A DNA stretch of 64,000 nt from Alphaproteobacteria bacterium 32-64-14. GTDB lineage: Bacteria > Pseudomonadota > Alphaproteobacteria > Caulobacterales > Hyphomonadaceae. Every line of letters begins with the position of its first letter. Within the stretch, counting starts at the first letter, position 1. Positions 15,255 to 18,160 of this stretch are shown here, in pieces. The translations under genes were made by a program, and so were the position numbers. Below the pieces are notes generated by a model. That model saw nothing but the letters and a program-made list of their open reading frames with translations, had not been told where the DNA came from and made no database searches. Where the stretch lies: the NCBI GenBank assembly GCA_002280725.1, contig NCEM01000001.1:62001-126000 (forward strand). Direction: 5' to 3'.

Positions 15255-17603
15255 ATGGAATCGCCTGATCCCCCAGAGAACAGCGACCTGCCGGACGAGC
15301 CTGCCGAGGACCTGGAAATCGGGCCCGAGGACGAGCTGCCGCCAGAGGTCGAGATGGAGCCCGAGGAAATCTCCTCCGGGGTCGATCTCAGTGCGCCTGA
15401 TGCGGTGAAGAAACGCCGGGTGGCGGGGCCCGATGTGATCCGCGATCAGGTGACCCGCCTGCCGGGCAAGCCGGGCGTCTATCGCATGTATGGCGAGACG
15501 GGCGACCTTCTCTATGTCGGCAAGGCGCGCAACCTAAAGGCGCGGGTCGGCAGCTATGCCAAGATCGGCGGGCAGACGCAGCGCATTGCGCGGATGATCT
15601 CGCTGACGCGGTCGATGGAGTTCGTCGTCACGGCGAGCGAGACCGAAGCGTTGTTGCTTGAGGCGAACCTGATCAAGCGGCTGAAGCCGCGCTTCAACAT
15701 TATCCTGCGCGACGACAAGAGCTTCCCGCATATTCTGATCCGCGAAGACCACGAAGCGCCGCAGGCGCTGAAGCATCGTGGCGCCAAGCGGATCAAGGGA
15801 CGGTATTTCGGGCCGTTTGCTTCTGCGGGAGCGGTGGATCACACGCTGGATACTCTGCAGAAGGCGTTCCTGCTGCGCACGTGTACGGACAACGTCTATT
15901 CAACGCGCTCGCGACCCTGCATGCTGCATCAGATGGGGCGGTGCTCGGCGCCGTGTGTGGGACTGGTGCCGCTGGACGAGTATCGTGATCTTGTTCGGGA
16001 AGCGGAGCGCTTCCTTGATGGCGATGCGGAGATGCTGCAGGAACAGCTGTCTGCGCAGATGGAGCGTGCGGCGGCGAACATGGACTATGAGCGGGCGGCG
16101 GGCCTGCGGGATCGCATCCGCGCTCTCTCGTCCGTGCGCCAGAGCCAGAGCGTCAACCCGGATGGGCTGGTGGAGGCGGATGTGTTCGCCATCCATTCGG
16201 AGGCAGGCGCATCGGCCGTGCAGGCGTTCTTCTTCCGCGCCGGCCAGAACTGGGGCGCGACCGTGTGGTATCCCAAGCATGATCGCGACGACACGCCCGA
16301 GCAGGTGCTGACCGCGTTCCTCGCGCAATTCTATGACGACAAGCCCGTGCCAAAGCTGATCCTGCTGAATGCGGAGATCGAGGACGCGGAGCTGATGACC
16401 GAGGCGCTCGAGCTGAAGGCCGAGCACAAGGTGGAGATCCGCACGCCACAGCGCGGCGAGAAGCGCGAGATCGTTGCGCAAGCCCAGCTGAACGCGCGCG
16501 AGGCGCTGGGCCGCAAGCTGGCGGAGACGCAGAGCCAGCAGAAGATTTTCGCGGCGGTGCAGAAAGTGTTCGACTTGCCCGAAGCGCCGAAGCGCATCGA
16601 GGTTTACGACAACTCGCACATCATGGGCACGAACATGGTGGGCGGCATGGTGGTGGCAGGACCGGAGGGGTTCGAGAAGACCAGCTATCGCAAGTTCAAC
16701 ATCAAGGACCAGGAGATCGAACCCGGCGACGACTACGGCATGATGCGCGAAGTCATGCGCCGCAGGTTTGGAAGGCTGAAGAAGGAGTGGGAGGAGTTGA
16801 ATCCTTCGCTGCAGTTGCTTGCGAGCGAAGGCGACGGCTTCACCGTGGAAGTGACGCAGATCGGGGCGGAGCCAACCGAGATGGAAGCGAATGTCGCGCA
16901 GCCAATCGAGAATGCGTTGGCGCAAATCCACGGCATAGCCAAGATGACGTCGGCCGTCGTGGCGGGCCGATCCATCACAATCGTCGCAATGGTCGATACC
17001 GCAGATGCGGGTGACGCGCAGAGCCGGGCAACGCAAGCAGTCAATGCGATCCGCACGAATCTTCCGGACAACATCGAGAACCTGATCGTTGCGCCGATGA
17101 AGGCGGGAGCAATACCCCTTTGGGCTTCGCAAAAACGTCCTGACTCGTGGCCCGATCTCGTACTGATCGATGGCGGGCTGGGGCAGCTCTCCGCCGCGAA
17201 GGAAGCCGTCGAGGCGGTGGGCTTCAGGCCGGGCGAGCTGAACCTTGTCGCCATCGCAAAGGGGCCGGATCGCAATGCGGGGCGGGAGCAGTTCTTCCGC
17301 CCGGGCCGCGCGCCGTTCCGGCTGCCGCCGAACGATCCGGCGCTGTACTATCTGCAGCGCCTGCGTGACGAGGCGCACCGCTGGGCGATTGGCGCGCACA
17401 GGGCGAAACGCGCGGCGGCGATCAGCGGGCAGAATCCGCTGGATGAAATCACCGGAGTCGGCGTGCGCCGGAAGAAGGCCCTGCTGCATCGTTTCGGCTC
17501 CGCCAAGGGCGTGAGCAACGCAACGGTCGCGGATCTGCAGACCGTTGAAGGCGTCAACGAAGCGCTGGCGCAACGGATCTACGATCACTTCCGTGGGGGA
17601 TGA
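15255..17603 (+). CDS. uvrC: excinuclease ABC subunit C with an inserted RND-porter-like domain
   Basis: UvrC makes both incisions around DNA lesions with UvrAB. From ATG 15255 the 782-residue protein has an acidic N-terminal extension (1-58), a GIY-YIG nuclease (about 68-150, LPGKPGVYRMYG and LLYVGKARNLKARV) and a UVR domain near 268-300. The RNase H-like endonuclease follows, with D452 in VYDNSH and D639 in VLIDGGLGQ, then C-terminal helix-hairpin-helix units. Family members are usually 600-680 residues. The excess is mostly residues about 517-629, lying between RRRFGRLKKEWEEL and DSWPDLVLIDGG, inside the nuclease domain. That piece (GAEPTEMEANVAQPIENAL, GIAKMTS, AVNAIRTNLPDNIENLIV) reads like an AcrB-type porter subdomain. 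The frame is intact and both nuclease centres are present, so activity is likely retained. The stop overlaps the GrpB start (ATGA). Confidence 0.93.
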   Translation: MESPDPPENSDLPDEPAEDLEIGPEDELPPEVEMEPEEISSGVDLSAPDAVKKRRVAGPDVIRDQVTRLPGKPGVYRMYGETGDLLYVGKARNLKARVGSYAKIGGQTQRIARMISLTRSMEFVVTASETEALLLEANLIKRLKPRFNIILRDDKSFPHILIREDHEAPQALKHRGAKRIKGRYFGPFASAGAVDHTLDTLQKAFLLRTCTDNVYSTRSRPCMLHQMGRCSAPCVGLVPLDEYRDLVREAERFLDGDAEMLQEQLSAQMERAAANMDYERAAGLRDRIRALSSVRQSQSVNPDGLVEADVFAIHSEAGASAVQAFFFRAGQNWGATVWYPKHDRDDTPEQVLTAFLAQFYDDKPVPKLILLNAEIEDAELMTEALELKAEHKVEIRTPQRGEKREIVAQAQLNAREALGRKLAETQSQQKIFAAVQKVFDLPEAPKRIEVYDNSHIMGTNMVGGMVVAGPEGFEKTSYRKFNIKDQEIEPGDDYGMMREVMRRRFGRLKKEWEELNPSLQLLASEGDGFTVEVTQIGAEPTEMEANVAQPIENALAQIHGIAKMTSAVVAGRSITIVAMVDTADAGDAQSRATQAVNAIRTNLPDNIENLIVAPMKAGAIPLWASQKRPDSWPDLVLIDGGLGQLSAAKEAVEAVGFRPGELNLVAIAKGPDRNAGREQFFRPGRAPFRLPPNDPALYYLQRLRDEAHRWAIGAHRAKRAAAISGQNPLDEITGVGVRRKKALLHRFGSAKGVSNATVADLQTVEGVNEALAQRIYDHFRGG

Positions 17604-18160
17604 CTGGCGTGGCCGACGAGATCGAAGCCAGACGCGCTGACGCGACGCCCGTCACGCTCACACCCCACGATACCGCATGGGAGGAGACTGCGGCTGCCGA
17701 AATGCGGCGCATATCGACCGCGATCGGCGCGGCGTTGCTGCGCGTGGAGCACATCGGTTCGACCGCGATCCCCGGCATCGCCGCCAAGCCAACGATCGAC
17801 CTGATGCCGCTGGTGCGCGCCGAGGGCGATCTCGATTCATGTCGCGGCCCGATGGAATCGCTCGGCTATCTGTGGCGGGGCGAGTATGGCATCGCGGGCC
17901 GGCGCTACAGCGTTCTTGAGCAGGGCGGGAAACGCCTGTTCCATGTCCACATCTTTGCCGAGGGCAACGAGAACGTCGCGCGGCATCTAAGTTTCCGCGA
18001 CTATCTGCAGGCGCATCGCGATGAAGCGCTGGCCTACGAGGCCGCCAAATCTGCCGCCGCAGCGGCGCACCCGGACAACTCCATGGCCTACAACGACCAC
18101 AAGTCGGGGTGGATCAGGGCCTGCCAGGAGCGGGCGAAGACCTGGGCGGCCGGGCTCTAA
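17600..18160 (+). CDS. GrpB family protein (nucleotidyltransferase-like)
   Basis: The 186-residue protein shows the GrpB/UPF0157 signature VEHIGSTAIPGIAAKPTIDLMPLV (core GSTAIPG, then K-P-x-I-D), which is the active-site region of a minimal nucleotidyltransferase fold. FHVHIF and LSFRDYLQAH in the second half also fit. Some family members are fused to dephospho-CoA kinase; the biochemical role is unsettled. Its ATG overlaps the uvrC stop by four bases, so it is translationally coupled to uvrC. Confidence 0.88.
   Translation: MTGVADEIEARRADATPVTLTPHDTAWEETAAAEMRRISTAIGAALLRVEHIGSTAIPGIAAKPTIDLMPLVRAEGDLDSCRGPMESLGYLWRGEYGIAGRRYSVLEQGGKRLFHVHIFAEGNENVARHLSFRDYLQAHRDEALAYEAAKSAAAAAHPDNSMAYNDHKSGWIRACQERAKTWAAGL

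Follow-up and report, generated by a model that had tools for sequence, protein, structure and literature searches.

The window analysed here, a stretch of 64,000 nucleotides from Alphaproteobacteria bacterium 32-64-14 (contig NCEM01000001.1, positions 62,001 to 126,000), carries an intact uvrC coding sequence of 782 codons on the forward strand (15255..17600), identified by open reading frame analysis and TIGR00194. The frame contains no stops and yields 782 residues from the ATG at 15255 or 794 from an upstream TTG, and its match to this curated NCBIfam model is 507.1 bits with a cut-off of 285.45. The Pfam domains occur in the usual UvrC order, all on the forward strand: a GIY-YIG nuclease domain (PF01541, residues 73-146, 15471..15692, 30.3 bits with a cut-off of 22.6), a UVR motif (PF02151, residues 262-292, 16038..16130, 39.4 bits), an RNase H-like endonuclease domain (PF08459, residues 436-712) and a helix-hairpin-helix domain (PF14520, residues 729-780, 17439..17594, 37.5 bits). 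The RNase H-like domain is in two parts, as seen in the Pfam match and the predicted model. The first (16560..16802) holds D452 (16608-16610) and a helix (493-515) reaching up to the insertion point, and the second (17133..17390, ending at residue 712) holds D639 (17169-17171). D452 and D639, which we take to be the catalytic acidic residues of the domain, are invariant across 31 aligned UvrC sequences. Between the two parts, alignments A1, A3 and A9 place an insert of residues 517-626 (16803..17132, forward strand), bounded by ...KKEWEELN and KRPDSWPDLV. A profile search found no second UvrC in the genome, the assembly of which is 95.5% complete; the sole other match in this genome was an RND pump. 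Since UvrA and UvrB of the same genome score above their cut-offs and there is no second UvrC, the window's UvrC presumably carries out nucleotide excision repair.

About 95 residues of this cutting domain match a single module of an RND drug-efflux pump, the first porter subdomain (PN1), which occupies approximately residues 525-624 (16827..17126, forward strand) in the order strand-helix-strand-strand-helix-strand. In the whole UvrC, Pfam ACR_tran (curated cut-off 28 bits) matches residues 531-618 with 40.9 bits. With the segment alone the score rises to 46.1 bits (expectation value, E, 2.1e-12), and the NCBIfam model RND_permease_2 matches with 7.4e-14. The UvrC matches a pump nowhere else: the transmembrane bundle and the remaining porter and funnel subdomains are missing, and the protein does not qualify as a full RND transporter. 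In comparison with PN1 in pumps of the AcrB/AcrD/MexB type (PF00873), the insert corresponds to profile positions 45-133 of 1021 only and lies within a repair nuclease; in comparison with other UvrC proteins (TIGR00194; Thermotoga maritima 2NRT, Deinococcus 8B0Q), the window's UvrC has an extra predicted domain between helix 493-515 and the D639 strand. Structure prediction gives the segment an independent fold, with the PN1 topology and as a small separate domain beside an intact nuclease fold. In the full-length model, only four alignment rows cover the insert. A Foldseek search with this full-length model also returned Hsp70 structures, which were disregarded because the matches were weak (E about 3e-4 and worse, root mean square deviation over 25) and ranked behind UvrC. 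A preliminary description of this DNA, made from the letters alone, had pointed to three RND motifs (GIAKMTS among them) and proposed a transporter-derived domain between D452 and D639. The motifs do lie in frame in the 782-residue protein, and profile, predicted fold and phylogeny all bear out the domain. Neither of the two outcomes named beforehand as refuting it, a lack of any RND profile match or a segment common to all UvrC proteins, was observed.

The same description had called attention to about 110 extra residues at this place. An insert of that size is present, although its length is not in itself unusual: RRRFGRLKKEWEEL is separated from WPDLVLIDGG by 116 residues in the window's UvrC and by 4-137 at the 26 other loci (of 27) that could be read, so that linker length alone is not distinctive and it is the content that is unique. 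The suggestion that the insert is less GC-rich (guanine plus cytosine) than its flanks held up poorly, as windows in the insert have values of 0.59-0.63 and the lowest (0.553-0.587) are mostly upstream, in ordinary UvrC sequence. The only palindrome at the insert borders was one imperfect 14-nucleotide pair, 79% complementary, which we did not use, and Rfam at its gathering threshold gave 0 matches in five UvrC loci.

The insert is shown by sequence comparison to be akin to a group of pumps, here called GFTV-type after a motif, that are present in the same order. The nearest pumps carry this motif and have identities to the inserts of 31-48%. They come from Hyphomonadaceae/Caulobacterales records (L084-L089), from a single genome within the window's family (L055, G099, with 9% contamination) and, by score, from another family of the same order, where L141, the one frame read there, has GGFTV. 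The closest pair is the insert of UvrC P0003 with pump L138 (48% over 95 residues). In a phylogenetic tree, three window-like inserts formed one clade (support 100/99) that joined the GFTV pumps (100/97); in another tree, which has long branches, all five different inserts found in UvrC proteins formed one clade (93/97). No GFTV-type pump was found in the genus, and none of the pumps in the 15 genomes covered exceeds 43% identity to L084. A donor in the same genome was not found among the eight full RND pumps compared, the best of which has 36% identity and none any DNA similarity to the insert; one further pump, on C80, is cut N-terminally by the contig end and fell outside the comparison.

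Among relatives, the RND domain is patchy, scattered and strongly diverged. We obtained uvrC loci from 30 of the 61 genomes searched (the remaining 31 were without a locus). One of the 27 linkers that could be read automatically, the window's own, has an RND segment, and the other three loci, inspected singly, have none (one of these ends at a contig end). Within the genus, the window's genome is the only one of 15 with the insert. Residues 520-632, searched against 5.8 billion proteins, gave three matches at E <= 0.001, all of them UvrC proteins of 782 residues that align without any gap, and a search with the P0003 insert returned the known carriers P0001-P0003 and one RND fragment of 533 residues (P0004). 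With whole UvrC as the query, in the best 120 of 7998 scored relatives (linkers were read in 120 of 121 proteins), a hidden Markov model (HMM) built from pumps scored five linkers: P0003 (89.7 bits), P0001 (82.4), P0002 (77.7), P0009 (75.0) and P0021 (55.4). Pfam ACR_tran recognized the P0009 insert above its cut-off (49.5 bits) and scored that of P0021 below it (20.6). The carrier entries originate from lgn, ncbi, jgi and ena. Insert searches of 105 family genomes and, for the strongest rows, of 398 order genomes revealed no other UvrC carrier among the matches listed; weak carriers in the order could be hidden, because only the strongest rows were seen. Of the frames under 1000 residues listed for the order, the window's own and that of G281 (L141, a pump) were read and those of G253, G319, G201 and G310 were unread. 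Scanning contigs with the window's insert alone gave 0 relatives among 233 stretches, and with alignment A2 gave 36 loci, all of them long pump-like frames and none with the UvrC LIDGG motif. In the open-licence literature, a scope that leaves most subscription papers outside, no description of this UvrC insert was found.

The history of the inserts differs from that of the genes that carry them. In a set thinned from 137 to 69 rows, the cores of the carriers are 90.8-99.5% identical, whereas insert identity among them runs from 100% down to 32%; with the exception of P0001, the inserts are 33-83% identical to the window's while the cores are 91-96% identical. Very close backbones are without the domain, namely P0007 (core 98.8% identical to the window's) and P0023 (99.2% to P0009). 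On a tree of 30 cores, hand-chosen to include the carriers, their neighbours and some others, the carriers require four changes of state, and a single clade of all carriers is rejected (approximately unbiased test, p-AU 1.7e-82). The insert tree pairs the window with P0002 and rejects P0002 with P0003 (p 0.011); the core tree pairs P0002 with P0003 and rejects window, P0001 and P0002 as a group (3.9e-5), and it also rejects P0009 with P0021 (2.0e-5), which the insert tree joins. The conflict thus runs in both directions, the insert rejections having p values of 0.011 and 0.0068. These comparisons show that inserts of a single clade sit on several distinct uvrC backbones, and exchange of uvrC segments by recombination in the conserved flanks would be the simplest reading. 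The N-terminal 58 residues (15255-15428) are another variable part of the protein; they are acidic and of low complexity, and only 81-86% identical among four carriers, as against 95.8-99.6% in the core that follows.

The loop that holds the insert varies in length and content among relatives (alignments A1, A3 and A9). The stretch from RRRF to DGG measures 28 to 161 residues over the 27 readable loci, the window included, and linkers in the 120 listed UvrC proteins have 29 to 128 residues, with a median of 55; the labels "repeatlike", "short" and "other" that we gave to linkers follow pattern rules of our own. DNA of the G010 linker recurs in the genus: 11 of 15 genomes have matches, some of them in uvrC linkers, and over both strands these number 94 in G003 and 16 in the genome of the window. 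The linker of G025, from another genus, also has dispersed partial matches, in smaller number. Both look like genomic repeats carried in frame. These alignments and matches mark the UvrC loop as a hotspot of insertion, the other cargo of which derives in part from repeats. The insert DNA of the window has no second copy in its own genome, the next matches being short (E 0.1 and worse), so that the dispersed copies typical of a palindromic repeat element are found for the G010 loop and not for the window's insert. The uvrC gene of G006 lies on two contigs (L011 G006:C558 and L042 G006:C437), with the break inside a repeat-type linker, which is what a repeat present in many copies would lead one to expect. 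Near a contig end of G034 there is a second copy of the UvrC N-terminus (L028, G034:C16), truncated and broken at the PDLV strand; the contamination estimate of that genome is 5%. The short linker of L017/P0119, the nearest relative of P0021, reads VPAAVEGAELVAAPSPAPADGARRPDAWP and may be what a deletion left of a PN1 insert.

Selection is likely to keep the PN1 domain folded, to judge from the pattern of substitutions. The 87 domain columns show no gap in any of the five inserts, which retain 22, 20, 23, 22 and 22 of 23 hydrophobic columns; given the common ancestry of the inserts, the five counts are not independent of each other. When native pumps were made to decay neutrally to 58% identity (taken as the square root of the 34% shared by the inserts of the window and P0009), 18.3 hydrophobic columns were left (standard deviation 1.9), and of 960 neutral simulations 2.6% kept at least 22 and 0.2% kept 23. 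The patchy presence of the domain on near-identical backbones argues that it is dispensable for UvrC. The most likely role of the domain is that of a passive folded spacer, and of the two possibilities first raised for it, tolerated or useful, we favour tolerated.

We consider it probable that a complete, self-folding PN1 domain sits in frame in a variable UvrC loop as a tolerated, passive spacer and has been exchanged between uvrC genes. A fragment of a GFTV-type pump gene would have entered the loop once, by illegitimate recombination. It may have been acceptable there because PN1 has a continuous ferredoxin-like fold with ends that need not disturb the preceding helix or the D639 strand. 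The segment could then have been swapped between uvrC genes through homologous recombination in the conserved flanks, and lost in some lineages, where it would be replaced by, or alternate with, repeat-derived linkers. Selection would probably maintain the fold of the insert to preserve the cutting activity of the sole UvrC, while the surface of the insert appears to diverge far faster than UvrC itself. Several results weigh against parts of this account. The inserts score 55-90 bits with the HMM, no higher than the mean of 69.6 predicted for native pumps that have decayed neutrally to 58% identity, so that retention of score alone is not evidence of selection. A stronger sign of selection, that neutral descendants of the window's insert reached the P0003 score in 0 of 1000 cases at 60% identity and the P0002 score in 9 of 1000 at 83%, depended on the window's insert as the starting point. 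The hydrophobic columns of P0002 are ordinary (766 of 1000 simulations were as high), and the substitutions that separate the window from P0003 show no significant preference for the variable columns of RND proteins (p 0.195). The four window-like carriers are not rejected as one core clade (p-AU 0.074, or 0.249 in another core tree that left out five rows), the groups to be tested were chosen once the trees were already known, and branches of the insert tree are long. The search for a donor yielded no copy above 48% identity, and the repeat nature of linkers was checked by DNA for two of them only (G010 and G025).

The observed distribution could also go back to a single ancestral insertion that was later lost many times independently, without any exchange among uvrC genes. 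The single clade of inserts fits this, as do the short or repeat linkers that are common here and could follow deletions, and the putative remnant in L017/P0119; losses alone do not produce a two-way conflict between insert and core trees, and we regard this explanation as rather unlikely, given that conflict. A selected function of the insert in UvrC, such as self-association or binding of a partner through the PN1 helices, would account for the preservation of fold-determining positions without insertions or deletions across deep divergence, and for carriers on several backbones in several sources. It seems less likely again in view of the close backbones that are without the domain, the divergence of inserts on similar cores, and a carriage of only five among the best 120 of 7998 public UvrC proteins. 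More doubtful still is an allele-switching uvrC loop, in which genes about 99% identical alternate between repeat linkers and a PN1 cassette that does real work in self-association or partner binding. These explanations are not all mutually exclusive, and the likelihoods attached to them need not add up to certainty. An assembly chimera or contamination joining a pump fragment to uvrC might be suspected from the single carrier among the genus genomes, and is extremely improbable: the segment is in frame at both ends, its DNA is unique in the genome, and the explanation is already contradicted by independent entries, five UvrC proteins from four sources, that share the architecture. Equally remote is the idea that the segment belongs to UvrC as such and has no more than a likeness to RND proteins. 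Variation in loop length is usual in these UvrC proteins, but the segment is absent from 26 other linkers and from 115 of the 120 listed proteins, which already contradicts the idea, and profile, tree and predicted fold all indicate PN1.

Two described systems resemble the UvrC loop in part. Palindromic elements of Rickettsia insert into existing genes with the frame kept (PMC3767692). The in-frame UvrC linkers of the relatives are similar in matching dispersed repeats, whereas the window's insert is present in one copy and is a domain of a known protein family. UvrC of Deinococcus has a conserved 16-residue insert in a surface-exposed loop, shared across the genus (PMC5867870). It too is a loop insert in UvrC; that of the window differs in having about 110 residues, a patchy occurrence and a recognizable source. 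The PN1 insert is a clear example of how a subdomain of a membrane transporter can be redeployed within a DNA-repair nuclease to which it is unrelated, and the loop in question accepts repeat-like DNA as well. The natural series of short loop, repeat linker and pump domain, partly on near-identical backbones, bears on what loops can accept, on whether foldedness alone is selected and on whether segments move between genes by recombination.

Downstream of uvrC, an open reading frame of 186 residues (17600-18160), which looks to us like a GrpB/UPF0157-type protein, starts at 17600 and overlaps the last base of the uvrC codons. Elsewhere in the genome, the UvrB frame (L130, G000:C54) reaches the end of contig C54 after matching to profile position 600, and a UVR motif (622-658) is on contig C6 (G000:C6:16336-16446). 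A repeat in the UvrB linker, too, may have caused a break in the assembly.
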